In this document: positions 2,796-17,467 of the stretch, one piece after another
Numbering within the stretch: position 1 is the stretch's first letter
How the letters are laid out: each line of letters begins with the position of its first letter
NCBI GenBank assembly: GCA_017433615.1
Contig: JAFRGW010000003.1
Span: forward strand, 1 to 35,594
Direction: 5' to 3'
DNA: 35,594 nt
From: Eubacterium sp.
GTDB taxonomy: Bacteria > Bacillota > Clostridia > Lachnospirales > Lachnospiraceae
Notes under the pieces: model-generated
Database searches by the model: none
Seen by the model: the letters and a program-made list of their open reading frames with translations, nothing else
Told to the model about the DNA's origin: nothing
Made by a program: the position numbers and the translations under genes

Positions 2796-2830
2796 ACTGT
2801 CCTCCTCCTTTACATACAATCTCGTTTGTT

Positions 2831-2870
2831 TGACCCGCCTCCTTCACTGACGGGAACTCCCCCACTTTAT
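2831..2870 (-). repeat. Dispersed GGGGAGT-type hairpin element, copy A
   Basis: In the untranslated leader of the SH3b gene, the minus strand reads CAATAAAGTGGGGGAGTTCCCG and then a GGAGGCGGG block and TCAAAC. A closely similar block (CAATAGATGGGGGAGTCCCCG) occurs in the fabD-fabG gap near 28.2 kb. The shared part forms a short GGG-AGT-CCC hairpin. It looks like a small dispersed repeat or a decayed insertion-sequence end. Confidence 0.5.
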
Positions 2871-2891
2871 TGGTGTTTTCTGTGTGTCTTT

Positions 2892-2920
2892 ATTATGCAC
2901 GAAATACATGATTTCGTCAA
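2892..2920 (-). promoter_or_regulatory. Promoter of the SH3b gene with an inverted repeat in its spacer
   Basis: Reading on the minus strand: -35 TTGACG (2915-2920), a 17-base spacer, -10 CATAAT (2892-2897); each box is 5 of 6 to the vegetative consensus. The spacer is largely filled by a perfect 7-5-7 inverted repeat, ACGAAAT-N5-ATTTCGT at 2899-2917, which overlaps the -35 box and is placed where a repressor would block polymerase. The transcript would start near 2885, giving a leader of about 90 bases. Confidence 0.75.
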
Positions 2921-2978
2921 TTTTTTTCTGAATACTCCTCGTTTTTAATGCGTTTTTACGAGAAATATTACATATTGT

Positions 2979-4355
2979 TTACAATTCCAGTCCCATGTTT
3001 TTCAGGTCGGCAACAACTTCATCATACATCTGCTGCCATTCCGGAACCGGTTCGATTGTCTCCATATTATAGGAAACATCAAACGGCTGGCCGTCATTGC
3101 CGCCTTTCTGCTCAAATATATGTTCATATTTTGCCAGCAGCTTCAGTACCATCTCATTCGCCTGCCCGCGGGTCATTCCCATGCGCGCAACCGCCTTGCC
3201 GACCTCGCCCATCAGCCGGCATTCCAGACCGGTTCCATGCGGTACTCTTCCGTTCGCTGCACCCAGTCCTTCCAGATGGCCGCCGCTGACCGTAACGACA
3301 ATGGAATTAGCCGCAACTTCATACAACAGTTCTTTTGTCAGACTGCCGCTTGCCGGCCAGAGGTCGCAGACAATGATCGCCGGCGCCTTCTTTGCAAATG
3401 TCTGGCAGAGTACCGACTGCAGCCACAGACATCCGCGTGCCGTTGTCGCCACGTCGCGGATATGAATCGGATGGCAGAGGTGGTAGTCTGCCGCAGCAAA
3501 CCAGTTGGCTGCCATGATGGAAGCAATCATGATCATGCAGCTGCCGGGCGCATCTCCGCCGAGACCGCCGACCATGGTACAGGCGAGTGAAGCATTTTTC
3601 ATTCCATAGTCCAGCGAATTCGCAGTACGGATCAGGTTGCCGTTATCCATGATCAGCTCATTAAACAGCGCGACCAGGTGTGAGTCACACGGCCGCAGAT
3701 ATTTCTCCGCTGCCGCCGACAGATCCCCGAGCTCCGTCACGGCACTCTCTGCTGCCAGCAGTCCAAGACCCGGCCTGCCGACCTTTTTCAGTGCCTTATG
3801 CAGATACTGCATTTCCCGGCGCACTGCAATGATTTCTGTCGGTTCACCGCTGGCCACCTGAAACCCATCCACATCCACCAGCGAACCACAGGTCAGAAGA
3901 TCAATTACCGGCTCTTTCGCAACACTTTCGATAATCGGGTAATACAGACGCTCCGGCGTCGGACATCCCGGATTGCCTGCCCAGACTGCCGGCGGACGAC
4001 GGTCTTCAATTCCGCGCGCCACAAGCGTATAGGCATCCCTGCCCTCGCCCATCGTCAGTTCCGTCTTCATATTTGCAATGCCTTCGTCGATCTCTTCGGG
4101 CGTCAGCTTCATGATCCGTCCGGTCGTCATATTGTAAATACCTGTCCGGATCAAAAGTTCACGCGCCGCTGTAAACATATCATCCAGCAGCTGATCATCC
4201 TGCGGAATCAGCACATCCTTATCCCAGTCAAACTCATAATCCCCGACCAGTTCCATGACATTATCAATGATATAGTCCATGTCCCAGTCTTCCTTGGCGA
4301 CCTTCTCGCCTGTTTTACTGCGCTCGTAAAGATTCAGAAACTGCTTTGTATCCAT
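2979..4355 (-). CDS. MtmB-family corrinoid methyltransferase homologue without pyrrolysine
   Basis: The 458-residue protein matches methanogen monomethylamine:corrinoid methyltransferase MtmB along its whole length (MtmB is also about 458 aa). Shared landmarks include GEK...DDW near the start, GIY..(T)..RI.K.T..EI near 72-90, G.GRDA at 104-108, GRPG.G at 193-198, CDSH...LNEL at 223-233, WH.HPIHIR-like region near 290, and the C-terminal TGLE.R.MGEV. In MtmB the pyrrolysine (residue 202, UAG) follows GRPGMGV; here the aligned residue is Leu200, read from a normal sense codon. The enzyme would be expected to demethylate some methylated amine onto a corrinoid protein, but without Pyl the substrate may differ, as seen for MttB-family relatives such as MtgB. 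No corrinoid protein, activase or pyl gene is in the window. The start has AAGGAG 10 bases upstream. Confidence 0.8.
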   Translation of the reverse strand: MDTKQFLNLYERSKTGEKVAKEDWDMDYIIDNVMELVGDYEFDWDKDVLIPQDDQLLDDMFTAARELLIRTGIYNMTTGRIMKLTPEEIDEGIANMKTELTMGEGRDAYTLVARGIEDRRPPAVWAGNPGCPTPERLYYPIIESVAKEPVIDLLTCGSLVDVDGFQVASGEPTEIIAVRREMQYLHKALKKVGRPGLGLLAAESAVTELGDLSAAAEKYLRPCDSHLVALFNELIMDNGNLIRTANSLDYGMKNASLACTMVGGLGGDAPGSCMIMIASIMAANWFAAADYHLCHPIHIRDVATTARGCLWLQSVLCQTFAKKAPAIIVCDLWPASGSLTKELLYEVAANSIVVTVSGGHLEGLGAANGRVPHGTGLECRLMGEVGKAVARMGMTRGQANEMVLKLLAKYEHIFEQKGGNDGQPFDVSYNMETIEPVPEWQQMYDEVVADLKNMGLEL

Positions 4356-4415
4356 ACAGTGTGATCTCCTTATTGTTCTATTCTATCAGCTGTTATACTG
4401 CTGTAACTGATTTTC

Positions 4416-4444
4416 AGTATACCTTACCGAAGGGCTTTCGTGAA
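4416..4444 (-). promoter_or_regulatory. Promoter of the MtmB-like gene
   Basis: On the minus strand, TTCACG (4439-4444), a 17-base spacer and TATACT (4416-4421), followed by a leader of about 55 bases to the ATG at 4355. The -10 box is 5 of 6 and the -35 box 4 of 6 to consensus. Together with the terminator at 4495-4538 this makes the gene a separate unit from the transketolase genes. The GntR-type operator word of the neighbouring locus is not found here. Confidence 0.6.
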
Positions 4445-4494
4445 GTAGGAGACAGAGGAAATCATGTGTAATGCAGCAAAAGTGATTTGCGGCA

Positions 4495-4538
4495 TAAAAA
4501 AAAGCCGGCGGATTCATTGTCGTGAATCTCGCCGGCTC
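4495..4538 (-). terminator. Rho-independent terminator after the transketolase genes
   Basis: Downstream of the C-terminal transketolase subunit the minus strand has AGCCGGCG...ATTCA pairing with TGAAT...CGCCGGCT (arms about 4503-4516 and 4522-4536), followed by eight Ts. Strong stem and long T-tract. Confidence 0.92.
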
Positions 4539-4544
4539 TTTTCT

Positions 4545-5501
4545 TTATGCCGCTTTCTTTCTTATAAAAGTGCACACTTCGCCCGCGATATGTGCCGGGC
4601 TCAGGTTGTATTTATCCAGAAGTTCGGCGTGAGGACCGGATTCAGTAAATACATCATCGATACCGATTCTTAAAACCGGAACCGGAACGGTATTTGTAAC
4701 AACCTCACAAACTGCAGAACCGAGTCCGCCAATGACACTGTGTTCCTCGGTAACAATGATTCTTCCGCAGTCTTCCGCCGCGCGGATGATTTCCACCTCA
4801 TCAATTGGTTTTACACACGGCATCTCAATAATTCTCACGCGGATACCCTGCTGCTCCCAGAGCTCTTTCGCGCGAAGCACACGCGCGACGGCTGTACCAT
4901 TGCAGATGATTGCGGCATCGGTTCCTGCCTCATCCAGAACATTTGCTTTTCCGATCTTAAACTGGTAGGATTCATCAAATACTTTTTCGACAGGACCGCG
5001 GCCGATTCTGAAATAGACCGGTCCCTTATAGTCAAGAATCTCCCTTGCCATTACAACGCAGGATGCAGCGTCTGCGGGAACGGCTACGACAAGATTCGCG
5101 ATACTGCGCATCATACCGACATCTTCTATTCCCTGATGGGTGACACCCTCAATATTACCGGACAGACCGGAAAGGCCGCTGATGATCTTGACATCCAGAT
5201 TCGGATAGCAGATAAAGGTACGGATCTGCTCTGCAATCCGCATAGAGGCAAACGGTGCGTAGGTTGCGATAACTGCTTTGCCGCCGCAGGAAGCGATACC
5301 CGCGCCAATCAGAGCCATATTCTGCTCCGCGATGCCGTTATTGATGACACGGTCCGGGAATTCTGCCGCCATCGGCTTGCAGCCCATTGACTTTGTCGTG
5401 TCTGCGCCGACCGCAAACAAATTATCGTATTCTTTTGCCTTTTCCAGAAGCGCGATTCCAAATGCATCTCTTGTAGAAATCTTATCATATGTTACAGCCA
5501 T
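4545..5501 (-). CDS. Transketolase, C-terminal subunit (split transketolase)
   Basis: The 318-residue protein contains the pyrimidine-binding (about 5-170) and C-terminal (about 190-315) domains of a transketolase. The catalytic glutamate that activates thiamine diphosphate is E59 in NNGIAEQNM; phosphate/sugar-contact sequences such as THQGIED near 120 and the EEHSVIGGLG segment near 252 are present. It must pair with the N-terminal subunit encoded immediately upstream; the two frames overlap by 10 bases, so translation is coupled. The start follows GAGGAGGAACGGTC. Split transketolases of this size are common in Firmicutes catabolic clusters (for example apulose-4-phosphate transketolase) as well as in some central pathways; the link to the TRAP transporter locus argues for a catabolic, substrate-specific role here. 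Its acceptor and donor sugars are not known. Confidence 0.93.
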   Translation of the reverse strand: MAVTYDKISTRDAFGIALLEKAKEYDNLFAVGADTTKSMGCKPMAAEFPDRVINNGIAEQNMALIGAGIASCGGKAVIATYAPFASMRIAEQIRTFICYPNLDVKIISGLSGLSGNIEGVTHQGIEDVGMMRSIANLVVAVPADAASCVVMAREILDYKGPVYFRIGRGPVEKVFDESYQFKIGKANVLDEAGTDAAIICNGTAVARVLRAKELWEQQGIRVRIIEMPCVKPIDEVEIIRAAEDCGRIIVTEEHSVIGGLGSAVCEVVTNTVPVPVLRIGIDDVFTESGPHAELLDKYNLSPAHIAGEVCTFIRKKAA

Positions 5502-6331
5502 GACCGTTCCTCCTCCAATTCTCTGATTGCCTGTTCATACTGCTCTGCAGTCGGTACTTTCTGGTGCCATGCATTGTCAAATTCCATATAGCTGACACCT
5601 TTTCCTTTAATTGTGTTCGCCATAATACAGGTTGGCTTGCCGCGGAATCCTTTTGCCATATCCAGAGCACTGACAATCTCTGCCATGTTATGCCCGTTGA
5701 TGGTAATTACATTCCAGCCAAGGTTTTCCCAGGCGGCTGTCATGCCCGGAATGTGCTGGATGTCATAAACCGCACCACAGCTTTGCAGATGATTACAGTC
5801 AACAATTGCCGTTAAGTTATCAACCTTCATGGCCGGTGCCGCGAGTACAGATTCCCACACGGTTCCTTCCTGAATTTCTCCGTCTCCGAGGATGCAGTAT
5901 ACCTGCGCATTGGATCCTCTGTTCTTTAAGTAAACCGACATCCCAAGTGCTGCGGAAAGCCCGTTTCCAAGCGAGCCGCTGGTCATGTCAACGCCCGGGG
6001 TTTTCTTCATATCCGGATGTCCCTGCAGCTTGCTTCCGGTTCTTCTTACGGTTGTCAGCCATTCCTTTGGAAAATATCCCTTCTCAGCCAGCGCGGAATA
6101 GATGACCGGGCAGGCATGCCCTTTTGAAAGCACCAGGCGGTCGCGGTCTTCCATATCCGGATGTTTCGGATCCACATTCATTGAATAGAAGTAAAGTGCG
6201 GTAACGATGTCTGTGCAGGAAAGAGCCGGTCCTGGATGGGAAGGTCCCTGTGCCTTAAAAGCGATGTCGACGATGTCTTTCCGGATCGTGTTTGCCATTA
6301 GTTCCAGATCACGGATTTTTGATTCTCGCAT
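5492..6331 (-). CDS. Transketolase, N-terminal subunit (split transketolase)
   Basis: This 279-residue protein is the diphosphate-binding half of transketolase. The thiamine diphosphate/Mg motif runs from GDG at 149-151 to N180, and the conserved histidines H32 (SHPGP), H72 (KGHA) and H105 (GHPD) are in place, as is GSLGNGLS at 119-126. With the next gene's product it forms a complete transketolase. The start is ATG 6329-6331, six bases after AAGGAGG; an in-frame upstream ATG at 6412 would add an Arg/Lys-rich head unlike the family and would lie inside the operator and promoter region. It is the first gene of a two-gene operon facing away from the dehydrogenase and TRAP genes and sharing their operator word. 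Confidence 0.93.
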   Translation of the reverse strand: MRESKIRDLELMANTIRKDIVDIAFKAQGPSHPGPALSCTDIVTALYFYSMNVDPKHPDMEDRDRLVLSKGHACPVIYSALAEKGYFPKEWLTTVRRTGSKLQGHPDMKKTPGVDMTSGSLGNGLSAALGMSVYLKNRGSNAQVYCILGDGEIQEGTVWESVLAAPAMKVDNLTAIVDCNHLQSCGAVYDIQHIPGMTAAWENLGWNVITINGHNMAEIVSALDMAKGFRGKPTCIMANTIKGKGVSYMEFDNAWHQKVPTAEQYEQAIRELEEERSWL

Positions 6332-6403
6332 AACGCGCCTCCTTAATAAGATAGAACTGTTTTGATATTGCTTTCGCTTTCGTCTCCGTCGCGCTTTGTT
6401 ATG

Positions 6404-6413
6404 CGACGTCATA
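6404..6413 (-). promoter_or_regulatory. Putative GntR operator, transketolase side
   Basis: The minus strand reads TATGACGTCG here, just downstream of the -10 box of the transketolase promoter (over the likely start of transcription). The same ten bases occur at 6605-6614, and with one change at 10870-10879. A repressor bound here would block the transketolase promoter. Confidence 0.6.
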
Positions 6414-6425
6414 TGTTATGATGCA

Positions 6426-6454
6426 ACAATATCGTACCTTGCGCTGAAAGTCAA
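6426..6454 (-). promoter_or_regulatory. Promoter of the split transketolase operon
   Basis: On the minus strand, -35 TTGACT (6449-6454), 17-base spacer, -10 TATTGT (6426-6431). The operator word at 6404-6413 follows directly. The leader to the ATG at 6331 would be about 90 bases. Confidence 0.6.
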
Positions 6455-6566
6455 TAGGTAAATGTAGATAAAACAAATGCTGAAAATTATACAAACTGCA
6501 CAATTACAGCTTGTTTTTGTCGGTATTGCACAAATTAATTCGAATTATATTGGCTGTTTTTCAGTA

Positions 6567-6595
6567 TTGCAAAACCAGGAGACAAAAGATAGAAT
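6567..6595 (+). promoter_or_regulatory. Promoter of the dehydrogenase-TRAP operon
   Basis: -35 TTGCAA (6567-6572), 17-base spacer, -10 TAGAAT (6590-6595). The operator at 6605-6621 begins ten bases later, over the expected transcription start. Confidence 0.6.
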
Positions 6596-6604
6596 GTTCT
6601 TAAA

Positions 6605-6621
6605 TATGACGTCGGACGTCA
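6605..6621 (+). promoter_or_regulatory. Putative GntR operator, palindromic, dehydrogenase side
   Basis: TGACGTC-G-GACGTCA (6607-6621) is a perfect 15-base palindrome, preceded by TA to give the TATGACGTCG word, and followed by a second small palindrome CACATGTG. It sits directly after the -10 box, the position of a classical repressor site. It is the best of three related sites in the locus. Confidence 0.7.
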
Positions 6622-6705
6622 CATGTGATGAGCTTGTAACCGGATCCGGCATTTACGAAAAAAAACAATCTATATTTACACAAAAAAAGAAAGAGGTTCT
6701 TCATT

Positions 6706-7755
6706 ATGAAAGCACTGGTAAAAGAAAACAGAGACCGCGGATTTACATTTAAAGAAACAGAAAAGCCCGTACCGGGACCAGGAGAAGTCCTGATCCGCGT
6801 CAGAGCCGCGGCAATCTGCGGAACAGACATGCACTATTATTTATGGAATGATGCAGCAGAAGGTTTTTCAAGTAAATTCAATCTTCAGTTCCCGATGATT
6901 CCCGGCCATGAATGTGCCGGCGATGTCGAGGAAGTCGGAAGCGGCGTTACTTCTATAAAGAAAGGCGACAGAGTAACACTGGAAACACACATCCCCTGCG
7001 GACACTGCTTTAATTGTATGAATGATGAGCCGCACAACTGTCAGAATATGAAGATTTACGGAACCAGCTGTGACGGGTGCTTTGCAGAGTACGCAGTCGC
7101 ACCGGAGTCAATCGTATTCCGTCTTCCTGACGAAGTTTCCTATGAAGACGGTGCACTGTTCGAACCGGCCGGCGTCGCAATGCGGGCGGTTGAGCGTGCG
7201 GATCTGCTCCCCGGAGATACCGTTCTGGTTTCAGGCAGCGGACCGATCGGTCTTTTAACAATCCAGATGCTGTATTCGAGCGGCGCGGGCAAGGTCATTG
7301 CGACAGATCTGGATGAATACCGCCTGAAACTCGCGAAATCACTCGGGGCAATCGCAGTCAATTCCGCAAAGGAAAATCTCGCAGACGTAATCAGGCGGGA
7401 ATGTGCACAAAGAGGCGGTGTGGATGTTATTATAGAAACAACAGGTGCGGCGGTTGTCTATCAGGATCTGTTTTCTTATCTGCGAAACGAAGGACATATC
7501 GTGACAGTCGGGCACCCCGGCAAGCCGGTTATGATCAATATTATGGAAGCAATCAATCTGAAGGGGGCGACGATGCGGGGTGTGTTTGGCAGAAAAATCT
7601 GGGGTACCTGGTGGAAGGTTGCTTCACTTGTGAAGAACAAAAAGGTTGATCTGTGTAAAGTTGTCACACATCGCTTCGCGCTGCGCGATGGAAATCAGGC
7701 GTTTGAACAGGTTCCGAAAGGATCCGGAAAAATTTTGTTCACGGATTTTTCCTGA
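6706..7755 (+). CDS. Zinc-dependent medium-chain dehydrogenase (threonine/polyol dehydrogenase-like)
   Basis: The 349-residue protein is a classical zinc alcohol dehydrogenase of the MDR superfamily. Catalytic zinc ligands are C38, H68 and E69 (ICGTD, GHE), with E153 nearby; the structural zinc lobe has the four cysteines C98, C101, C104 and C112. The NAD-binding fold begins at GSGPIG (177-182). The overall pattern (MKALVKE..., CGTDMHYYLW, GDRVTLETHIPCGHC) is closest to L-threonine 3-dehydrogenase and sorbitol/polyol dehydrogenases, so it should oxidise a secondary alcohol of a polyol, sugar acid or hydroxy-amino acid with NAD(P). The ribosome binding site is AAAGAGG. It is the first gene of the TRAP operon, so it probably acts on the imported compound or its first product. 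Threonine itself is less likely given the TRAP partner. Confidence 0.88.
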   Translation: MKALVKENRDRGFTFKETEKPVPGPGEVLIRVRAAAICGTDMHYYLWNDAAEGFSSKFNLQFPMIPGHECAGDVEEVGSGVTSIKKGDRVTLETHIPCGHCFNCMNDEPHNCQNMKIYGTSCDGCFAEYAVAPESIVFRLPDEVSYEDGALFEPAGVAMRAVERADLLPGDTVLVSGSGPIGLLTIQMLYSSGAGKVIATDLDEYRLKLAKSLGAIAVNSAKENLADVIRRECAQRGGVDVIIETTGAAVVYQDLFSYLRNEGHIVTVGHPGKPVMINIMEAINLKGATMRGVFGRKIWGTWWKVASLVKNKKVDLCKVVTHRFALRDGNQAFEQVPKGSGKILFTDFS

Positions 7756-7862
7756 AAAGAAAAGCCCGCAGGACTACGGAAGCATTGATTTAAAAGAAGG
7801 ACAAAATCAATGTATGCCGATGTATCATTTGTCCTTTTATGACGAAACAGGAGGAATCTGTC

Positions 7863-8873
7863 GTGAAAAAGAAAACACAACTGCTGGCCTTACTGCTGGC
7901 CGTTTCACTGCTGACAGGGTTGCTGACAGGCTGCTCCGGTCAGGAGAAATCAAAAGAAAGCGTGACGCTTACAGTCGCGCATGTACTGACAGAGACACAC
8001 GCCTACCACCAGGCGTGGCTGAAGGTGGCCGAACTTGTTGAAGAAAGAACTAACGGAGGCCTGAAGCTGGAGGTCTTTGCAAACAGTACGCTCGGAAACG
8101 AGCGGGATGTCATTGAGGGAATGCAGCTTGGAATTGTAGATCTGAGTTGTATGTCAACCGGTGCGCTGGCCAGTTTTTCGCCGGCTTTTATGGCACTTGA
8201 CCTGCCATTCATATTTGACAGCCGCGAAAACGCATATAAAGTACTGGACAGTGAAATCGGCGATGAGCTTCTTGCCAGTCTGGATGAAAGCATGCTGGTC
8301 GGTGTGACCTTCTGGGAAAACGGATTCCGCAATATCAGTAACAGCAAACGTGATGTCGTGACACCGGAAGATGTCAAAGGACTGAAAATCCGCACGCTTG
8401 AAAACGAACTGCAGGTAGCCGCGTTTACGACACTGGGCGCCAATGCCATTCCCATGGCCTGGGGCGAAGTCTATACAGCGCTGCAGCAGGGAACGATCGA
8501 CGGACAGGAAAATCCGCTTGCCATCATTTATCAGAATAAAATCCATGAGGTCACGAAACATGTGTCGCTGACCGGGCATTTTTATGCGGCCGCGCCGGTG
8601 GTTATGAGCAAAAAAAGTCTGGAAAAGCTGAGTCCTGAATACCAGAAGATTTTACTTGAAGCAATTCGTGAAGTGACTTCTTACGAAAGACAGCTGAGTC
8701 TGGACAGCGATTCCGAATATCTGGAAAAGCTGCAGGCGGAGGGTGTGAAGGTTATCACTGAGATCGATAAAGCTGTCTGGAAAGAGGCGGTTCAGCCCCT
8801 GTACGATCAGTACCGGGAGCGAATCGGTGCGGATCTTCTGGACCGGATTGAATCAAAGATGAAGTCAGACTGA
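7863..8873 (+). CDS. TRAP transporter substrate-binding lipoprotein (DctP family)
   Basis: The 336-residue product starts with a basic head, a hydrophobic segment and a lipobox LLTGC, so it is a lipid-anchored extracellular binding protein. Family features are GNERDVIEGMQLGIVDLS near residue 80, DVKGLKIRT with the carboxylate-binding arginine, and EVYTALQQGTIDGQENP. It binds an organic acid, usually a sugar acid or dicarboxylate, and passes it to the DctQM membrane complex encoded next. The start is the GTG at 7863, eight bases after AGGAGG; an upstream in-frame ATG at 7839 precedes that site and has none of its own. A weak stem (GGACAAA with TTTGTCC) lies in the 107-base gap before it and may raise or lower its level relative to the dehydrogenase. 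Confidence 0.93.
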   Translation: MKKKTQLLALLLAVSLLTGLLTGCSGQEKSKESVTLTVAHVLTETHAYHQAWLKVAELVEERTNGGLKLEVFANSTLGNERDVIEGMQLGIVDLSCMSTGALASFSPAFMALDLPFIFDSRENAYKVLDSEIGDELLASLDESMLVGVTFWENGFRNISNSKRDVVTPEDVKGLKIRTLENELQVAAFTTLGANAIPMAWGEVYTALQQGTIDGQENPLAIIYQNKIHEVTKHVSLTGHFYAAAPVVMSKKSLEKLSPEYQKILLEAIREVTSYERQLSLDSDSEYLEKLQAEGVKVITEIDKAVWKEAVQPLYDQYRERIGADLLDRIESKMKSD

Positions 8874-8934
8874 AAATTCAGAATCCGAAAGATGTCCCAT
8901 AATATGTGAAGCTGCATAAGGAGAATCTCCGATT

Positions 8935-9438
8935 ATGAAAAAAATAGATTTTGTACTGGATAAAATTGAAAACTTCCTCTGTACGTTCTTCGCCTGTGTC
9001 ATGGCGGTTTCCATCCTGATTCAGGTCATCAACCGCAATACCGTGCGTATGCCGGTCACATGGTGTGAAGAGCTGGCACGCTATTGCATGGTATGGCTGA
9101 TTTTTGTAGGAATCAGCGCCGGAGTAAAAAAAGGATCCCATATCGGCGTAGACGCGCTGGTTAATTTACTGCCGGATGCACTGAACCGGACAGTCCGGAT
9201 CGTGGTTAATGTCGCTGTGACAGTTCTGTATGGATACCTGACGGTTCTGGCTGTGCAGATCACCGCGGGTATCAAAGAGACAGGACAGGTGTCTCCGGCA
9301 ATGCAGATTCCGATGTATCTGATCTATGCGGGAATGATCGTCGGACTGCTGATGAGTACACTTCGCTCGATTCAGGTGACGGCCGGCGTCATTTCCGGAC
9401 ATGAGGCAACAGAAGACAATCCCATGAGCGATTTTTAG
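8935..9438 (+). CDS. TRAP transporter small membrane subunit (DctQ family)
   Basis: The 167-residue protein has four predicted membrane helices (about 15-37, 50-68, 85-108 and 125-147) and the DctQ landmarks: an early R/N-rich turn (INRNTVRMPVTWCEELARY) and GVKKGSHIGVDALV. It forms the small integral subunit that bridges the binding protein and the DctM translocation channel. AAGGAG lies about 11 bases before the ATG. It follows the binding-protein gene by 61 bases and precedes the large subunit by 78, the standard TRAP order. Confidence 0.92.
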   Translation: MKKIDFVLDKIENFLCTFFACVMAVSILIQVINRNTVRMPVTWCEELARYCMVWLIFVGISAGVKKGSHIGVDALVNLLPDALNRTVRIVVNVAVTVLYGYLTVLAVQITAGIKETGQVSPAMQIPMYLIYAGMIVGLLMSTLRSIQVTAGVISGHEATEDNPMSDF

Positions 9439-9516
9439 AATCTATATCATTGAAGTTCATTCTGGAGAACTTTCAAAAAACTGATCGTTTTTAATAGATT
9501 AAGAAGGGAAAGAAAT

Positions 9517-10797
9517 ATGAGTATCGTTTTATTTGGTGTACTGGTTCTTTTGATCGCGCTTGGTATGCCCATCGCGCTGTCGCTTTCCGGTGCGACACTT
9601 GCAGCGCTGATCAGCACAACAGACGTGACACCGATTGTAGTCACACAGCGGTTTTTTACCGCGGTAGATTCATTTTCATTGATGGCAATTCCTTTTTTCA
9701 TGCTGGCAGGACTGCTTATGGAAAAAGGCGGCATCTCAAAACGGCTGATTGCGCTCGCAAATCTGCTTCTGGGAAATTTGCACGGCGGTCTTGCGATTGT
9801 TGCAATCATCGTTTCTGCATTTTTCGGTGCGCTGACCGGTTCCTCTGCCGCAACGGTAGCAGCCATTGGCGGAATACTGGTTCCTGCGATGATTAAGAGC
9901 GGATACGAAGAAGAGTTTGCACTGTCAACAAGCGCCAGTTCCGGGTTTCTTGGCTGCATCATTCCGCCTTCCATTCCGATGATCACATATGGTGTGGCCA
10001 CCGGCGCTTCGATCGGCGCAATGTTCATGGCGGGGGTCATCCCGGGAATTCTGCTGGCGCTCGGAATGTGCCTGTATGCATTCTGGCTCGGACGGAAACG
10101 AGGATATAAGGCAAGCAACAAGCGGGCAACAGCCGGTGAGATCTGGAACGCATTCCGGGAAGCGATATGGGCACTCCTGATGCCGGTCATTATTCTCGGC
10201 GGCATTTACGGCGGATTCTTCACGCCGACAGAAGCATCCTGCGTCGCGTTGTTCTACGGATTGTTAATCAGCATATTTGTATTCAAAGAGCTGAAGATCC
10301 GTGATCTTCCTGGCATGATCAAACAGGCAATGGTCAATTCTGCGATGGTCATGTTCATCATCGCCGGTGCGGCAGCATTTGGCTATCTCATGACACGCGG
10401 TCTGATTCCGACCCGCATCGCGAATGCGATCATTAACATGACAGACAGCTCAGTGATCTTCCTTTTGATTGTTAACCTCATGCTGCTGGTGATGGGTACG
10501 TTCATGGAAACCAATGCCGCAATCATGATTACCGCACCGATCCTGCTGCCGATTGTTAATGCAATGGGGATCAATGTCGTACATTTCGGTATTATAATGA
10601 TCGTCAACCTGGCAATCGGACAGATTACTCCTCCACTTGGTGTCAACCTGTTCGTAGCAGCGGGAATTCATGGCGGCGCGATTGAGAATGTAGTCAATAA
10701 ACATTTGATCCGTTATCTGGTTATTTCGATCCTGATTCTGCTGATAATTACTTATATCCCGGGATTTTCAATTGCACTGCCGAATCTGCTGGGATAA
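9517..10797 (+). CDS. TRAP transporter large membrane subunit (DctM family)
   Basis: The 426-residue, very hydrophobic protein has about twelve membrane segments and the DctM landmarks: PFFMLAGLLMEKGGI near 60, GALTGSSAATVAAIGGI near 105, GIIPPSIPMI-like CIIPPSIPMITYGV, FFTPTEAS near 235 and GQITPPLGVNLF near 370. It is the ion-coupled translocator (sodium or proton symport) for the substrate delivered by the lipoprotein at 7863. The ATG is preceded by AAGAAGGGAAAG. A small stem-loop (GAAGTTC with GAACTT) lies in the gap upstream. No good terminator follows; the next 180 bases hold the promoter of the GntR gene. Confidence 0.95.
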   Translation: MSIVLFGVLVLLIALGMPIALSLSGATLAALISTTDVTPIVVTQRFFTAVDSFSLMAIPFFMLAGLLMEKGGISKRLIALANLLLGNLHGGLAIVAIIVSAFFGALTGSSAATVAAIGGILVPAMIKSGYEEEFALSTSASSGFLGCIIPPSIPMITYGVATGASIGAMFMAGVIPGILLALGMCLYAFWLGRKRGYKASNKRATAGEIWNAFREAIWALLMPVIILGGIYGGFFTPTEASCVALFYGLLISIFVFKELKIRDLPGMIKQAMVNSAMVMFIIAGAAAFGYLMTRGLIPTRIANAIINMTDSSVIFLLIVNLMLLVMGTFMETNAAIMITAPILLPIVNAMGINVVHFGIIMIVNLAIGQITPPLGVNLFVAAGIHGGAIENVVNKHLIRYLVISILILLIITYIPGFSIALPNLLG

Positions 10798-10869
10798 CAT
10801 ATTTGTTTCGATATATCTCAGTGGAAGATGACCTGCGCCAGGTCCTGCAGGTACGGGATTTGAAAAAGG

Positions 10870-10899
10870 TATGACATCGGACGATAACTGTGATAAAAT
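10870..10899 (+). promoter_or_regulatory. Autoregulated promoter of the GntR gene
   Basis: -35 ATGACA (10871-10876), 17-base spacer, -10 TAAAAT (10894-10899), each 5 of 6 to consensus. The operator-like word TATGACATCGGACG (10870-10883) covers the -35 box and spacer and matches the 6605 site (TATGACGTCGGACG) at 13 of 14 bases; both are followed by a TGTGAT block. Binding of the encoded GntR protein would repress its own gene. Confidence 0.65.
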
Positions 10900-10903
10900 C
10901 AAT

Positions 10904-10960
10904 GCAGGAGCTCAGGCTGCTGAACATGTATCAGCCGTGCTCCTGTATTCTTTTATCAGA
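10904..10960 (+). terminator. Strong hairpin with T-rich tail in the GntR leader (attenuator-like)
   Basis: CAGGAGC (10905-10911) pairs with GCTCCTG (10939-10945) and inner GGCTG with CAGCC, followed by TATTCTTTT. It may end transcripts reading out of the TRAP operon, but because it lies after the promoter at 10870-10899 it would also be in the leader of the regulator's own mRNA. Confidence 0.55.
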
Positions 10961-10977
10961 TAATCAGGAGATTTATT

Positions 10978-11697
10978 ATGGCAGACTATATCAATTCTAA
11001 TGAGAGCAGACGATCAACCCTGGCAAATCAAATTGCCAATCAGCTGGTTGACTATATTCAGGAAAATAAACTGCAGGCCGGAGACCGGCTTCCCAGTGAA
11101 TTTGAACTGGCGGAGCTGTTCAATGTCGGACGCGGGACAGTCCGTGAGGCGGTAAAAATTCTGGTTTCGCGAAATATCCTGGAGATTCGCAGAGCGAAGG
11201 GAACCTTTGTCTGTGAAAACATTGGTGTAACGGAGGATCCGTTCGGATTTAACTTTGTACCGGACAAAACAGAACTTGTAGATGATTTGTTCGAGATCCG
11301 CTTTATTCTGGAGCGGTATTTTGTCAACAAGGCAGCAAATTATATTACTAAAGAAAAGCTGGAAGAGATGCGGCAGATCGTGCGGCAGATCGATGAACAC
11401 GTAGATGATCACGATTTCTGCGTAAGCTGTGATATAAAATTCCATCAGTGCATCATGGAAAGCAGCCAGAATCTGGCAATCCCCGTTGTCCTTCCGGTTA
11501 TAACATCTAATATCAATTACTTTAACCAGACGCCGTTTGTGCGGCGATGGGAAGTCGCAAACAATGGTCATAAAGCAATTCTGGATGCACTGGAAAAACG
11601 GGATGGCGAACTTGCTGAAGAAGAAATGATCCGGCATCTGGCGTATGTTCTGGAGCGCAGAAAACGCCCGTCGGTTGATCCGCGTGCTGTCCCGTAA
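10978..11697 (+). CDS. GntR-family transcriptional regulator, FadR/FCD subfamily
   Basis: The 239-residue protein has an N-terminal winged-helix domain (about 13-78; LPSE.ELAE.F.VGRGTVREA..IL is the GntR signature) and an all-helical FCD ligand-binding domain (about 97-230). The metal-site residues typical of FCD domains are visible: D152, H156, H198 and H220. Such regulators are usually repressors released by a small carboxylate or sugar acid. It lies just after the TRAP genes, and its probable operator occurs at its own promoter and on both sides of the divergent region at 6.4-6.6 kb, so it very likely controls the transketolase, dehydrogenase and TRAP genes. Start ATG has AGGAG seven bases upstream. 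Confidence 0.93.
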   Translation: MADYINSNESRRSTLANQIANQLVDYIQENKLQAGDRLPSEFELAELFNVGRGTVREAVKILVSRNILEIRRAKGTFVCENIGVTEDPFGFNFVPDKTELVDDLFEIRFILERYFVNKAANYITKEKLEEMRQIVRQIDEHVDDHDFCVSCDIKFHQCIMESSQNLAIPVVLPVITSNINYFNQTPFVRRWEVANNGHKAILDALEKRDGELAEEEMIRHLAYVLERRKRPSVDPRAVP

Positions 11698-11768: not shown

Positions 11769-12377
11769 TCACGCATGGTTTTCTTTTAAGAAGTAATATA
11801 GCAATTCCGCCGTCATTCCCCAGATCACGCCGTGTTCTGTCTCATAGAAATAGAATCTGCGGGGAATGCTCCGCATCGGATAATTCCTGCCGCCGGGAAT
11901 CAAATGATAAGGAAAGTCCGCTTCTGTTTCCAGCCGCATACGCGCGCTGTGAATCAGCGGCGGATGCTCCGCAAACCAGGAGAGCGGGATTGTAAATACC
12001 TCAGCGACTTCTGAAGCCGCAAACATTCCTCCGTAGCCATGCAGAACGCCAAGAAAAGACGTGACTTCAGCGCCGCCCGGCCCTGGCATGCAGTGCATGG
12101 GGGCGATGACTTCAATCTGCTCCGCCGGAAGCAGTAGCTCCTCCGCGGTCTCGCGGACAGCGGCATCCGCCGGCCGCTCATGCGGCTCAATCATCCCGCC
12201 TGGAAAACAGATCTCCCCGCCCTGCCGGACATCCGCGCTGCGGCGCTCAAACAAAACCCGGACACTGCCGTCCCGCTCCAGCAGAGGGATCAAAACCGCC
12301 GCGCTTTTCGCGCCGGGCGGCTGAATCCGTTCCGCCGTCCGCCCGGTCAGATTTTTCTTAATCTCTTCCAGTTTCAT
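11769..12377 (-). CDS. Nudix hydrolase, CoA-diphosphatase-like
   Basis: The 202-residue protein contains a Nudix box at about 61-83: G61, E67, R75-E76 and the metal-binding E79-E80; the final glycine of the consensus is replaced by leucine. The preceding stretch VLFERRSADVRQGGEICFPGG resembles the extra motif of CoA pyrophosphohydrolases (NudL/NUDT7 group), which split CoA to phosphopantetheine and adenosine 3',5'-bisphosphate. The start is ATG 12375-12377, with GGAGG nine bases upstream; a longer frame to 12443 would run through the terminator of the neighbouring lipoprotein gene. It is a single gene, convergent with the GntR gene. The substrate assignment is by family resemblance only. Confidence 0.82.
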   Translation of the reverse strand: MKLEEIKKNLTGRTAERIQPPGAKSAAVLIPLLERDGSVRVLFERRSADVRQGGEICFPGGMIEPHERPADAAVRETAEELLLPAEQIEVIAPMHCMPGPGGAEVTSFLGVLHGYGGMFAASEVAEVFTIPLSWFAEHPPLIHSARMRLETEADFPYHLIPGGRNYPMRSIPRRFYFYETEHGVIWGMTAELLYYFLKENHA

Positions 12378-12401
12378 CCCCGTCAACCTCCATCTCTGCA
12401 G

Positions 12402-12431
12402 AAAAAGCTGCCGCTGATGCGGCAGCTTTTT
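12402..12431. terminator. Bidirectional-type terminator after the BMP lipoprotein gene
   Basis: A perfect 13-base stem AAAAAGCTGCCGC / GCGGCAGCTTTTT with a four-base loop. On the minus strand it gives a GC stem followed by five Ts and ends the ABC importer operon, 32 bases after the lipoprotein stop. Confidence 0.92.
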
Positions 12432-12463
12432 CAATATACACATACAACCAGCTTTCGGAATCT

Positions 12464-13783
12464 TTACTGACCAATCTGCCAGGATGTTGTAACATTTTCT
12501 ACGAAGAAGTTCTGCAGAATGATGTCATCATCTGCCATGACTTCGCCGTCAGCAACCAGAACGTTGCCAGCGTTGTCCTTCAGCTCACCTGCAAATACAT
12601 TGACCTCGCCGGACTCGATCTTAGCCTGCAGATCTTTCACCTGACTGACAACTTCTTCCGGAACAAAGTCAGCAAAGGCAGTCAGCTTTGAGCAGTCGCC
12701 GCCCCAGTAGTAAGCGTCGTTCTGTGTTGCGGTGCCTTCTGCGACATTGATCATGATGTTCTTGAAGATCGGCGCGAAGTTCCAGGTATGAGATACAAGA
12801 ACTGCTTCCGGTGCAAGGTAGGACATGTCATTGTGATAGCCGACGACAAATGCGCCGTTCTTCTCACAGGTCTCCGGGATTGCCGGGGAGGATGCCTCCA
12901 TACCCATGTATTTGATGCCTGCATCGATCAGAGACTGTGCACACTGGGTCTCTTTGTCAATATCATACCAGCTGTCAGCAGATGCAACCTTGACAGTTGC
13001 TTCCGGATTTGCATACTTTGCGCCGAGTGCATATGCATTGATCGCTGTACGGACTGAGAACTCGTTATAAGATGCAGAGAAACCGAGCTCTGTATTTTCA
13101 TCCTGTGAAAGCAGCTCACTTGCATAACCTGTCAGGAACATACCTTCATAACTTCTGATCTCATATGCAATCAGGTTATCTACCTTGTTGCCCCACTGTG
13201 CAAAATACACATCCGGGTTTGCTGCTGCGATTTCCGGCAGGAACGACGCATAACCTGTAGATGCGCCGAAGATCAGATTGCAGCCTTCATTGATCAGTTC
13301 TTCTGCCGCTGCCTGTGTGGTAGCCTGATCGGTATCATCGATCTCCTCAAGAACGATCAGGTTCTCTTCCGGAATACCCAGTTCATCCATAGCAGCAACA
13401 ATGCTCTCGTGTGTCGCCTGGCACCATCCGCCGTCGTTGATGACGTAGGACTCGATCTCACCGATCTTGATGTTTGAGAAATCAGTATCCGCTGCCGGTG
13501 CCTGACTCTCTGCATCCTGAGAAATCCAGTTGATCTCTCCGGCGGCAGCTGCCTCTTCGCCTGCAGCCTCTGATGCAGCTGCTGTCTCTTCTGCTGCGGA
13601 CGATGCTGCCTCTGCTGCCTCTTCTACTGCAGAAGATGCTGCTTCTGCTGCAGATGACGATGCTGCGGACGATGCTGCTGCAGATCCTGCAGAAGCTGCA
13701 TTCTGGTCGCTCTCACCACATCCTGCAAAAACAGATGCTGCAAGAACCGCTGCAAGGCAAACGCTTACGACTTTCTTTTTCAT
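12464..13783 (-). CDS. BMP-family (nucleoside-type) ABC transporter substrate-binding lipoprotein
   Basis: The 439-residue protein begins with a lipoprotein signal ending in the lipobox VFAGC, followed by about 60 residues made almost only of Ala, Ser and Glu, an unusually long flexible tether. The rest (about 100-435) is a BMP/PnrA-type binding domain: motifs such as GEIESYVINDGGWCQATHESI, IFGASTGYASFLPEIAAANPDVYFAQWG and AYEIRSYEGMFLTGYASELL are typical. Relatives (Bacillus NupN, Treponema PnrA) bind purine or pyrimidine nucleosides; some BMP proteins bind other ligands, so nucleoside is the best guess only. It is the last gene of a four-gene operon and the most downstream placement may give it the separate high level usual for binding proteins. 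Confidence 0.9.
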   Translation of the reverse strand: MKKKVVSVCLAAVLAASVFAGCGESDQNAASAGSAAASSAASSSAAEAASSAVEEAAEAASSAAEETAAASEAAGEEAAAAGEINWISQDAESQAPAADTDFSNIKIGEIESYVINDGGWCQATHESIVAAMDELGIPEENLIVLEEIDDTDQATTQAAAEELINEGCNLIFGASTGYASFLPEIAAANPDVYFAQWGNKVDNLIAYEIRSYEGMFLTGYASELLSQDENTELGFSASYNEFSVRTAINAYALGAKYANPEATVKVASADSWYDIDKETQCAQSLIDAGIKYMGMEASSPAIPETCEKNGAFVVGYHNDMSYLAPEAVLVSHTWNFAPIFKNIMINVAEGTATQNDAYYWGGDCSKLTAFADFVPEEVVSQVKDLQAKIESGEVNVFAGELKDNAGNVLVADGEVMADDDIILQNFFVENVTTSWQIGQ

Positions 13784-13825
13784 GTTTCTTTCTCCTCCTG
13801 AAGCTCTGGTTAAAATTATCTTTCC

Positions 13826-14758
13826 TCACCGGCTCTCGCGATCGTACGGGATCGTGAGAGCAGCCGGTGCACTGGAACGTCGTTTCCGGAAATTTCCGGT
13901 TGTAAAAATCAGTGCGATAATGGTCGCAACATACGGAAGTGCCGAGAAAAACTGTGAAGGCACCTGCGGAAAATACATCTGAATATCAATTCCAATGATA
14001 CTGATCGCACCGAACAGCAGGCCGCCAAATACTGCAATCAGCGGATTCCATGCAGCAAATACAACGAGCGCGACCGCGATCCAGCCCTTGCCGCTGGTCA
14101 TGCCGTCGCTCCAGAAATTTGTGTAATCCAGAGAGATACACGCCCCGCTGACGGCTGTCATTACGCTTCCGAATATGACATACGCATAGCGCAAAGCATA
14201 CACGTTATAGCCCGCGGAGTCAAGTGCTGCAGGATTTTCTCCAAGCGCACGTAAAATCATACCTGCTCTTGTCTTGTACAGATAGATCATGGAAACCGGT
14301 ATAATAATATACATAATGTACACCAGAATACTCTGGTTAAAGAGTGACGGACCAATCACCGGAATCTTTGAGAGTCCCGGAATCGCGATCGGGCTGAATG
14401 CCAGATTTGCATTCACGCCGCTGACTTCCTTGCCGATAAATCCGGAAAGTCCGGTACCAAAGGTCAGCATCGCCATACCGGCAACGGTCTGATCTGACTG
14501 CAGACTGACGGTCAGAAATGCAAACACCAGACCCAGCGCCGCGCCGACAACGATAACGGTCAGCATGGCCAGCGCAAGATTCTGCCGGTGAACGGCAACC
14601 AGATAACCGGATACCGCGCCCATCAGCATAATCCCTTCCAGGCCAAGGTTCATGACGCCCGCACGCTCTGCGAAGATTTCGCCGATCGCCGCGTAGAGGA
14701 CGGTTACGGCATAGACAACCGCGGTTGATATAATCGAAACCAGAAGTGTTGTACTCAT
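13826..14758 (-). CDS. ABC transporter permease, NupQ-like (BMP importer)
   Basis: The 310-residue polytopic protein belongs to the BPD_transp_2 permease family; the sequences GEIFAERAGVMNLGLEGIMLMGAV at 26-49 and ALGENPAALDSAGYNVYALRYAYV near 190-213 are hallmark cytoplasmic and membrane stretches of the Bacillus NupQ/YufQ group. It forms half of the membrane channel with the product of the gene upstream, with which it overlaps by four bases (ATGA), so the two are translationally coupled. Its stop is 42 bases before the binding-protein gene. Confidence 0.92.
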   Translation of the reverse strand: MSTTLLVSIISTAVVYAVTVLYAAIGEIFAERAGVMNLGLEGIMLMGAVSGYLVAVHRQNLALAMLTVIVVGAALGLVFAFLTVSLQSDQTVAGMAMLTFGTGLSGFIGKEVSGVNANLAFSPIAIPGLSKIPVIGPSLFNQSILVYIMYIIIPVSMIYLYKTRAGMILRALGENPAALDSAGYNVYALRYAYVIFGSVMTAVSGACISLDYTNFWSDGMTSGKGWIAVALVVFAAWNPLIAVFGGLLFGAISIIGIDIQMYFPQVPSQFFSALPYVATIIALIFTTGNFRKRRSSAPAALTIPYDRESR

Positions 14759-15834
14759 GCGTCCGCACCTCCTTCCGCCGTTTCCCGCCGGGCAAACCGG
14801 TAGCGGATAAAGAATTCACCTGCAATGACAAACAGCATGATGCTGCCCTGAATCATCATGGCAACCTGTGACGGTACACCGGTAATCTGCACTGCGACTG
14901 CTGATATCTGCAGGGCGCCGAAGAAGAACCCGACCAGCAGACAGACAAGCGGATTCAGTCCTGCAAGAAATGCGACGACGATACCTGTGTAGCCGGCATT
15001 GTTTGGCAGATCCGCCTGTACCCGGTGAATGATGCCGGCAACCTGCGCGAAACCTGCAAGTCCGGCGATCGCGCCGCTGACGCCGAGTACCATCAGAATG
15101 TTTTTTGCAACCGACATGCCCGCGTACTGCGCGGCGCGGGGACTTCTGCGGATGACCTCCATCTGGTACCCGCCGGTCGTCTTTGTGTGGAAAAACTGAA
15201 GTGCGACAGCGATCAGAATTACGATAATCAATACCGAATTGATCCCTGTATGGCCGATTTCCGGCAGCCAGTACCGCTCGTCAATGATCCGGGTCTGCGC
15301 AACCATCTGATTCAGCATTTTCCACGGCCCGTACATCAGGAAGTTCAGGACATACAGGAAAATGTAATTCAGCATCATCGTCAGGATGGTCTCATTTACC
15401 CCCCAGAATGCTTTCGGAATTGCCGCAAGCAGTGCGGCCGCTCCGCCGCCCAGGACAGCTGCAATAAACATCCCGAGTATTTTCAGAGGCGGCGGCATCA
15501 CCGGTCCGTACAGCGCAAAGCCGACACAGAACACCGCGCCCAGCGCGTACTGCCCCTCTGCTCCGATATTGTTCAGATTCATCCGGTAGCCGAAAGCAAC
15601 CGCAAGGCCGGTAAGCATCAGCGGAATTCCCGCCTCGATGCTTCGCTTCAAACCGCTCGCAGAACAGATGGTCTTCAGCATTTTTCCGTAAACAATCACC
15701 GGATTAAATCCGACTGCCACAAGGAAGATCCCGCTGAAAAGCAGGGCAAGGATTACGAAAAGAACCGGATTGAGCACCCTGTACCAGACGGGCACGCCAA
15801 TTCGCTTTTTGAGATAGATCCGGCCGCGCATCAT
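14755..15834 (-). CDS. ABC transporter permease, NupP-like (BMP importer)
   Basis: A 359-residue membrane protein of the BPD_transp_2 family, NupP/YufP type. The sequence ILTGLAVAFGYR.N..NIGAEGQY near 75-95 is the characteristic loop, and AARTAQYAG.S-like SPRAAQYAGMSVAKN appears near 235. It pairs with the 310-residue permease encoded next. It overlaps the ATPase gene upstream and the second permease gene downstream by four bases each, which fits tightly coupled synthesis of a heterodimeric channel. Confidence 0.92.
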   Translation of the reverse strand: MMRGRIYLKKRIGVPVWYRVLNPVLFVILALLFSGIFLVAVGFNPVIVYGKMLKTICSASGLKRSIEAGIPLMLTGLAVAFGYRMNLNNIGAEGQYALGAVFCVGFALYGPVMPPPLKILGMFIAAVLGGGAAALLAAIPKAFWGVNETILTMMLNYIFLYVLNFLMYGPWKMLNQMVAQTRIIDERYWLPEIGHTGINSVLIIVILIAVALQFFHTKTTGGYQMEVIRRSPRAAQYAGMSVAKNILMVLGVSGAIAGLAGFAQVAGIIHRVQADLPNNAGYTGIVVAFLAGLNPLVCLLVGFFFGALQISAVAVQITGVPSQVAMMIQGSIMLFVIAGEFFIRYRFARRETAEGGADA

Positions 15835-17372
15835 CTGTCCCCTCCTTTCTGACTTTCCCCGGGCTCTCTTTCTCCGGTCATCATTCTTCCGATTTCCATA
15901 ATATCCGTCTCATCGATATCCCGGATCCCCATCAGCTCTCCGTCACAGAGAACACCGACCCGGTCACACATATCGAAAATTTCTTCCAGTTCCTCTGAAA
16001 TAAAGACAACCGCTGCGCCCTTCCAGCTTTGCTCATTCAGAATCCGGCGGATTACCTCCGCCGCGCCAATGTCAAGCCCGCGCACAGGATATGCCGCGAC
16101 GATCAACTGCGGATTTCCCGCCACTTCACGGGCAAACAGGAGTTTCTGCTGGTTTCCGCCCGACATCAGGCCGACCGGATACGATACGCCTGCGTGCTTT
16201 ATTTCATAAGCATCCGTATAAGCGTCAGCGTCTTTCTGCATCTGCTCTTCCTGCAGAATGCCCGCCCTGCTGTATTTTTTCTGATTATATTCCTTCAGAA
16301 TCAGGTTGTGTTTCATATCCAGTTCGAGAACCAGACCTGTCGTTCTCCGGTCCTCCGGAATAAATGCAACGCCGCGTCTGATCCGGTCCCTGACAGAAGC
16401 TTTTGTAATATTGGAACCCTGCAGCAGGATCCTGCCTGCTGTCACCGGCCGCAGTCCTGCAATGACTTCAGAGAGCTCGCGCTGTCCGTTTCCGGCGACA
16501 CCGGCAATGCCGAAAATTTCCCCTTTCCGGATGGAGAGCGAGATATCTTTGAGCGCCGGCAGATTTCTGTCATTCCTGGCAGATACACCTTCCATGGTAA
16601 ATACAATCTCATCCCCGGGCTCACGGTCCAGAGACCGCTTCTGCGTTCCCATGCTGGTGCCGACCACAGCCTCTGTCAGACGCTCCACGGTGGCATCCGC
16701 GGCCAGCATCGTGTCCGCGACGGTTCCTCCCTTGAGTACGGTAATGCGGTCCGCGTTGTTCATGACCTCATTCATCTTGTGGGAGATCACGATCACCGCC
16801 TTGCCGCTGTCCGCCATCCTGCGCAGTGTATCAAACATATGCTGCGCCTCCTGCGGCGTAAGAACCGCAGAGGGCTCATCCAGTATCAGAATCTCCGCTC
16901 CCTGGTAAAGCAATTTTACGATCTCGACGCGCTGCTGCTCGCCGACAGAAAGCTGCCACACATAGGCGGATGCATCCACTTCCAGATTGAATTCTTTTGC
17001 ACATGCGTCAATTTCGCGCTCAATTTGTTCCTTCTTCAGGAAAAAGCTTTTATTTTCAGAATATAAAAAGACATTCTCGGCCACAGTCAGCGTCGGAATC
17101 AGGCGGAAATGCTGATGCACCATACCGATTCCGAGCGCGACCGCATCTTTTGGCGTACGAATGTCTGCTCGCTTTCCCTTATAATAAATTGCACCGCCGT
17201 CCGGGGCATAGATCCCCGTAAGGACGTTCATCAATGTACTCTTTCCCGCACCGTTCTCACCGAGCAGCGCGTGGATTTCGCCCGGATAGATCTCCAGATT
17301 GACCCCGCTGTTTGCAGTGATCAGGCCGAAGGTCTTCTTGATCTGCCTCATTTCAATAATCGGAGACGCCAT
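15831..17372 (-). CDS. ABC transporter ATPase with two nucleotide-binding domains, NupO-like
   Basis: The 513-residue cytoplasmic protein carries two ABC domains in tandem. The first is complete: Walker A GENGAGKST near 38-46, signature LSVGEQQR, Walker B LILDEPSAVL. The second is degenerate in the way usual for this family: GVAGNGQRE replaces the Walker A and LIVAAYPVRGLD the Walker B, while LMSGGNQQK is intact. So one ATP site is probably catalytic. It energises the NupP/NupQ-like channel and is the first gene of the importer operon; the ATG follows TGAGGAAAAAAT. Confidence 0.94.
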   Translation of the reverse strand: MASPIIEMRQIKKTFGLITANSGVNLEIYPGEIHALLGENGAGKSTLMNVLTGIYAPDGGAIYYKGKRADIRTPKDAVALGIGMVHQHFRLIPTLTVAENVFLYSENKSFFLKKEQIEREIDACAKEFNLEVDASAYVWQLSVGEQQRVEIVKLLYQGAEILILDEPSAVLTPQEAQHMFDTLRRMADSGKAVIVISHKMNEVMNNADRITVLKGGTVADTMLAADATVERLTEAVVGTSMGTQKRSLDREPGDEIVFTMEGVSARNDRNLPALKDISLSIRKGEIFGIAGVAGNGQRELSEVIAGLRPVTAGRILLQGSNITKASVRDRIRRGVAFIPEDRRTTGLVLELDMKHNLILKEYNQKKYSRAGILQEEQMQKDADAYTDAYEIKHAGVSYPVGLMSGGNQQKLLFAREVAGNPQLIVAAYPVRGLDIGAAEVIRRILNEQSWKGAAVVFISEELEEIFDMCDRVGVLCDGELMGIRDIDETDIMEIGRMMTGEREPGESQKGGDR

Positions 17373-17467
17373 ATTTTTTCCTCATACACTATGCCGGTCT
17401 TCAGTTACGAATGTCTGTATCATATGGCCGCTGCATCGGGCATCTTCACGCGGCAAATCCACATGCA

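Follow-up and report, generated by a model that had tools for sequence, protein, structure and literature searches.

The window, by which we mean the whole stretch of 35,594 nucleotides analyzed here, carries a gene for a relative of the monomethylamine methyltransferase MtmB and, on the far side of a block of other genes, an operon for an ABC transporter of the BMP type (Table 1). The block looks like a recently inserted catabolic cassette. It is missing between the NUDIX gene and the MtmB gene in a locus 95% identical to ours (L002), and NUDIX relatives 65-66% identical to that of the window adjoin MtmB in both L002 and L017. The PnrA/BMP-type ABC transporter at 12464-17372 has been moved away from the MtmB gene by the insertion. 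Rfam at gathering score found nothing in the window. Elsewhere in it, at 20966-22978 on the reverse strand, a candidate class I lysyl-tRNA synthetase with a C-terminal tRNA-binding domain was read by eye.

Table 1. Coordinates of the features around the gene of the MtmB relative, as positions of the window.
Feature	Positions	Strand	Remark
MtmB relative, 458 aa, Leu200 at the Pyl202 position	2979..4355	-	
Codon 200, CTG (Leu), aligned with the amber/Pyl codon of MtmB	3756..3758	-	
Two promoter-like sites upstream of the MtmB gene	4380..4444	-	consensus matches only; 2 found against 0.5 expected
Block with split transketolase, zinc alcohol dehydrogenase, TRAP transporter and GntR/FCD regulator	4545..11697		parts the MtmB gene from the transporter
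NUDIX hydrolase gene	11769..12443	-	
BMP/PnrA-type substrate-binding lipoprotein	12464..13783	-	
ABC permease 1 (BPD_transp_2)	13826..14758	-	
ABC permease 2 (BPD_transp_2)	14755..15834	-	
ABC ATPase of the BMP-type transporter	15831..17372	-	

The first-pass annotation had described the protein as an end-to-end relative of MtmB with leucine in the place of pyrrolysine, and both parts of this description were upheld. The PF05369 (MtmB family) profile is matched with 323 bits against a curated cut-off of 25 and is covered from position 4 to 450 of 450, and the predicted model superposes from end to end on MtmB, so that the fold is that of MtmB at a sequence identity of 31-32%. PF05369 is the sole family reported at E 0.001, with no match to the MttB superfamily profile (MttB, MtgB; 7xcl, 2qne, 9yce), which is a different family, and an NCBIfam search with the protein gave no match at E 0.001. 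The residue aligned with Pyl202, which in MtmB comes from an in-frame TAG, is Leu200 from CTG. A misplaced Pyl position was rejected, since two analyses agree and the model superposes end to end. Amber suppression or a decayed Pyl gene was rejected as well, because there is no TAG, Leu is found in all 26 Leu-type loci where the position is visible (L020 is without that part) and the PylS profile has no match at E 0.001 in the assembly the window comes from (G000, 94% complete). In the 12 genomes checked PylS was over its cut-off in G050 alone, a genome with a TAG-containing MtmB. An MtmB relative with Leu for Pyl is therefore confirmed, while the interpretation first attached to it is partly supported.

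To what extent the Leu type is shared among bacteria was seen from a scan of one genome per species over 84,980 species, which reaches close relatives only. It gave 19 loci in Lachnospiraceae, Eubacterium, Clostridium, Roseburia and similar, with Bilifractor porci as the named species; two of the loci are from roe deer gut and one from goat gut. PF05369 was present in 12 of 299 genomes sampled from the family (ten with the Leu type, G050 with its TAG MtmB and G291 with two other non-Pyl types) and in 28 of 398 sampled from the phylum, 27 of these over the cut-off. A second family sample, probed with the query protein, had 15 positives among 397 genomes, 13 of them Leu-type. The suggestion that the Leu form might make a clade of its own was borne out: it groups apart in the 21-row and 23-row analyses, and a tree of 64 rows places all 23 full-length Leu rows in one group and the 9 Pyl rows in a second, with 100/100 for each versus the other. 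Sister to the Leu group is L207 (52% identical, also Leu), followed by L148 with Ile and L151 with Tyr, in a tree whose deep branches are long and whose program warns on joins among them. Loci repeating one genome were taken out ahead of the main alignment, rows covering at most 250 query residues (L020, L131 and one piece of L130) were kept out of it, and a further six rows that are partial or odd were kept from the trees (L018, L019, L136, the second piece of L130, L097 and L129).

The 23 Leu rows and the 9 Pyl rows have the same unvarying residue in 68 alignment columns, among them those of Asp-Ser-His 224-226, while 50 columns are invariant within both groups and differ between them. The latter include (Leu-type/Pyl) Leu200/Pyl, Leu227/Glu229, Leu257/Glu259, Cys259/Met, Thr260/Pro, Asp331/Gln333 and Trp333/Tyr335. 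The shared columns together with those fixed but different make the Leu type look like a conserved enzyme with a different substrate and not like a product of decay. Glu229, Glu259, Gln333 and Tyr335 of MtmB are presumably the residues that bind methylamine or Pyl, and Leu227, Leu257, Asp331 and Trp333 take their places in all 23 full-length Leu rows. In relation to MtmB of Methanosarcina barkeri (1nth, 1l2q, 1tv2; PF05369) the protein thus has Leu for Pyl202 and Leu, Leu, Asp and Trp for the four, and the Leu type is moreover without a PylS match, without an adjacent MtmC and linked to transporters of the purine type. A monomethylamine methyltransferase that works without pyrrolysine, as the fold and the 31-32% identity would allow, is highly improbable when Pyl and all four presumed methylamine partners are replaced by other residues that are themselves fixed, and the genome has no PylS match. 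Of the earlier proposal of a different substrate or mechanism it is upheld that the protein is no methylamine enzyme of the established kind and that a different substrate is likely.

It had also been stated that the gene stands alone, with no corrinoid protein beside it. An isolated gene whose surroundings give no hint of its role is not supported: a transporter of one or the other of two types is linked to the MtmB gene in 24 of 27 Leu-type loci, and a chance solitary gene was rejected on this linkage. Of the 23 Leu loci fetched, 15 have a BMP-type ABC operon upstream of MtmB and in the same orientation, with the NUDIX gene in between in L002 and the operon cut by the contig end in L007; such an operon is linked in L206 too, and in L207 the order is reversed, MtmB lying 9 bases before the ATPase gene. 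In 6 of the 23 fetched loci an unrelated permease (d7) is found directly downstream of MtmB. It has no NCBIfam name and no significant Pfam match, and its low-confidence model best matches NCS2-fold structures (SVCT1 18.9, UraA 17.9, UapA 17.4, AZG1 16.8), the fold matches also including vitamin C and anion transporters. Members of this NCS2-fold-like family were seen in L014, L016, L020, L040, L041, L043, L045 and L120, near MtmB of two clades. Rfam at gathering score, applied to 9 of the 23 Leu loci, found one T-box in L043 and otherwise nothing.

Two enzymes of adenine metabolism accompany some of these loci. An adenine deaminase (TIGR01178, 595-624 bits vs 472.5) sits beside MtmB and d7 in three loci, in convergent orientation in L016 and L020 and in divergent orientation in L041, whose enzyme is 38-39% identical to the others. 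Adenine phosphoribosyltransferase (Apt; TIGR01090, 232-234 bits vs 185.85) is encoded ahead of the ABC operon in L018 and L206, in the latter at a distance of 12 bases. Further upstream of the apt-ABC-MtmB operon of L206, at 16557-19459 on the reverse strand, there are UbiD-family decarboxylase genes, one recognized by NCBIfam and the other by eye. The frequent company of purine-type transporters in relatives suggests that the gene takes part in a so far unrecognized, oxygen-free demethylation of methylated purines, and the explanation to which we give about an even chance is that the enzyme demethylates an N-methylated purine, possibly a methyladenine, in a corrinoid-dependent way. It counts against this reading that adenine genes occur at 5 of 27 Leu-type loci, of which L018 and L206 represent one genus and L016 and L020 one arrangement, that L205 has no transporter beside MtmB, and that a further congener (G775, 90% complete) has no MtmB copy. 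No PucR, xanthine dehydrogenase or guanine-deaminase-type gene was found within 8.5 kb of any Leu locus.

The binding protein matches PF02608 (Bmp) with E 2.7e-37, and its closest solved relatives are the BMP protein of Brucella (3s99, E 2.6e-33) and AtzT (6pi5, 6.9e-33). In the passages available, AtzT is described to hold guanine between Tyr45 and Trp194 with a KD of 0.11 uM (2.5 uM for adenine), and 3s99 to have adenine modelled (PMC6834077). The two sandwich positions are occupied by Trp120 and Trp272 in the protein of the window, and Ser97 is kept. At the guanine edge, Glu165, Asn218 and Asn220 of AtzT are changed to Ser243, Glu296 and Ser298, which makes guanine itself an improbable ligand. 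All 17 Leu-linked binding proteins aligned, out of 18 (that of L003 was left out), keep the two Trp as well as the Ser and the Glu, and the best-scoring binding protein outside this set, with 374 bits, belongs to L048, a purine cluster with an MtmB of clade B. It is known that eIF4E likewise holds 7-methylguanine by an aromatic sandwich plus Glu. Judging from these residues the ligand is likely planar, and it may be a methylated purine.

The same corrinoid chemistry could also have as its substrate an N-methyl heterocycle other than a purine, or some further methylated small molecule, imported by the BMP transporter, for example N-methyl pyridinium compounds, a B6-like ring or methylthioadenosine, with the purine neighbours being incidental. 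BMP-type and NCS2-fold proteins carry other ligands too, as the vitamin C and anion transporters among the d7 fold matches illustrate, and this possibility would suit the polar residues of the binding protein, which are unlike those of AtzT, as well as the low count of adenine genes. The nearest named NCBIfam models of the binding protein and of the two permeases are those of putative vitamin B6 transport; the scores, however, fall far short of the cut-off (the binding protein reaches 48 of 400). A purine is indicated alike by the two mutually unrelated transporter types, by the two adenine enzymes and by the purine-related surroundings of many other non-Pyl loci. We regard this alternative as rather unlikely.

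A corrinoid demethylase needs partners, and the first-pass annotation had proposed to search the genome for a cognate corrinoid protein, an activase and the pyrrolysine genes. In the window's own assembly this search ended without a stand-alone MtxC, RACo/RamA or PylS, the B12 proteins there being one MetH-like and one other B12-binding protein, while MtxC and RACo were present in the nine other Leu genomes of the family sample. On contig 127 of the same genome (L022) a 590-aa protein with a C-terminal B12-binding domain was noticed beside a sugar-acid isomerase read by eye. No MtxC, activase or methyl-tetrahydrofolate transferase of its own lies within 8.5 kb of any Leu locus; the single MtxC/MeTr match near one, in L016, is MetH, which was dropped as methyl acceptor as L016 is the only Leu locus with MetH nearby. 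Stand-alone MtxC and RACo thus each occur in 9 of 10 Leu genomes and are both missing only from our assembly. All 9 MtxC-bearing genomes have a member of one 17-row corrinoid clade (fragments below 160 aa and four truncated pieces were excluded). This clade is also found in G050 and G291, both without Leu-MtmB, and in G230 the only PF02607 protein is near RACo and two URO-D methyltransferases, so the clade may serve other enzymes. RACo is present in 174 of 299 family genomes (Leu vs rest, p 0.049), and since it is that common its co-occurrence is weak support. In the congener G081 two MtxC genes and RACo lie together within a 13.7-kb stretch, to which our assembly shows only four short and weak DNA matches; because the stretch includes the EF-Ts gene, a gap in the assembly is more likely than loss.

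The lack of a dedicated MtxC near any Leu locus, and of a stand-alone one in our assembly, could be attributed to the Leu clade having left corrinoid chemistry, its barrel being repurposed to bind or convert the imported ligand without cobalamin. We consider this quite improbable, given the 68 invariant columns in common with Pyl-MtmB, Asp-Ser-His 224-226 included, the finding that 9 of 10 Leu genomes have both MtxC and RACo, and the fact that the absence from our assembly coincides with that missing stretch.

The wider family was surveyed at 30 non-Pyl, non-Leu loci from 19 genomes, within 8.5 kb of MtmB, with 10 Pyl-MtmB loci from 9 genomes as control. As purine markers we took the PucR regulator, the 8-oxoguanine-/guanine-deaminase family, xanthine dehydrogenase subunits, the BMP protein and the NCS1 permease. 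At least one marker was present in 19 of the 30 loci (13 of 19 genomes) and in none of the Pyl-MtmB loci, even with the whole fetched locus counted; the p values of 0.0005 by locus and 0.0008 by genome are descriptive only, because the choice of markers was made on the non-Pyl loci, ahead of retrieval of the Pyl control, and the loci are not independent. In both sets of loci the reach was shortened by ends of contigs or loci (e.g. L143, L144 and L138; L156, L159 and L161), and continuations and short pieces (L124, L129, L131, L134, L136) and unfetched matches were omitted. The queries were drawn from non-Pyl and Leu loci. A BMP protein seen by Pfam in L146 was missed and stands outside the 19. 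Of five deaminases profiled, three exceed the cut-off for 8-oxoguanine deaminase and two narrowly miss it (523-646 bits vs 532); in L048 XdhA is over its cut-off and guanine deaminase under its own. PucR was assigned by Pfam in L119 and L151 and NCS1 by Pfam in L135, and the remaining markers by similarity to profiled ones. Eleven of the 30 loci are without a marker (e.g. L126, L127, L128), which indicates that the purine link does not span the whole family.

A stand-alone MtxC lies within 8.5 kb in 29 of the 30 loci, including L148 and L151, the near relatives of the Leu clade. L151 has PucR and glycine-cleavage genes besides MtxC, and L148 has MtxC, MtrH and an ECF-like transporter with no purine marker; a PocR-type regulator also lies there, and with it and the ECF-like transporter (2373-7473, forward strand) another importer type accompanies MtxC, MtmB and MtrH. 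L120 combines a partial d7 relative with a BMP protein, MtxC and PucR. Rfam at gathering score, for 8 of the 30 loci, gave cobalamin riboswitches in L047 only, one at 10476-10664 on the reverse strand upstream of an MtxC-MtmB (non-Pyl) pair and a second at 13167-13347, and a tRNA in L148. In L111/L145, L112/L122, L141 and L146 an upstream corrinoid frame runs into MtmB if TAG is read as a residue, possibly by chance; G406, a host of such frames, also has a TAG-containing MtmB.

That non-Pyl relatives of MtmB are far less described than those of MttB, as was stated at first, is outdated. The passages of one study give MtqB of Methanococcoides methylutens Q3c as a non-Pyl MtmB that demethylates tetramethylammonium, a quaternary amine, and choline, and a figure legend there calls the remaining non-Pyl MtmBs of a 1,061-sequence tree of unknown function (PMC13044021, 2026). 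By this published description MtqB is, like our protein, a non-Pyl member of the family; unlike the Leu type it has a cognate MtqC, a methanogen host and quaternary-amine substrates (PMC13044021). A quaternary-amine methyltransferase of this kind is unlikely here. It would have in its favour that MtqB is the one non-Pyl MtmB with a demonstrated function that was found, with sulfur and aromatic residues lining its modelled site according to the same passages (PMC13044021), and that Cys259, Met261 and Trp333 of the Leu-type pocket could, together with Leu, also make a quaternary-amine cage. The linked transporters, however, come from purine-binding families, and reading by eye brought up no quaternary-amine transporter among the neighbours. 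Another bacterial example, of unproven function as here, is Ga0180325_111810 of strain DCMF, a non-Pyl member of the MtmB superfamily that is reported to rise more than any other protein on dichloromethane and for which the passages hold no purine link (PMC9768040). In passages of a further article mtmB is listed among gut methylamine genes with no purine role given (PMC10653893). Searches of the open-access literature found, by title or passage, no tie of MtmB or monomethylamine methyltransferase to purine, xanthine or Lachnospiraceae, and, by title, nothing on corrinoid- or cobalamin-dependent anaerobic demethylation of methylpurine, methylxanthine or caffeine and nothing on PF05369 that bears on the Leu type.

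Returning to the methylated-purine reading, the protein would be an MtmB-fold corrinoid-dependent methyltransferase that has given up pyrrolysine and methylamine. A dedicated importer, the BMP-type ABC transporter or in some relatives the NCS2-fold-like permease, would take up a purine base that carries an N-methyl group and is probably of the adenine type, and the enzyme would bind it in a remodelled barrel pocket formed by Leu200, Leu227, Leu257, Cys259, Thr260, Met261, Asp331 and Trp333. The methyl group would pass to the cob(I)alamin of an MtxC-type protein whose gene lies elsewhere and which a RACo/RamA-type activase maintains in its active state, and then to tetrahydrofolate, while the freed base would be deaminated by adenine deaminase or salvaged by Apt. 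In ring N-methyl purines the leaving group is no worse than the phenolates released by the known O-demethylases. Substrate, corrinoid partner and direction of the reaction are what we infer from the neighbourhoods and the pocket. Extended to the family, with somewhat less confidence and as a tentative proposal, bacterial non-Pyl MtmBs may be oxygen-independent corrinoid N-demethylases of methylated purines, with the Leu clade as a gut branch for imported bases of the N-methyladenine type.

The genomic context offers a specific and testable substrate class for many bacterial non-Pyl MtmBs, and the Leu type is a natural comparison for the role of pyrrolysine. If the proposal is true, the MtmB barrel acts on ring N-methyl groups once pyrrolysine is gone, and anaerobes would own a cobalamin route, a counterpart to oxidative methylpurine demethylation, that strips N-methyl groups from purines of nucleic-acid turnover and from plant methylxanthines. 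Purine metabolism in the gut and rumen would then be tied to one-carbon metabolism.
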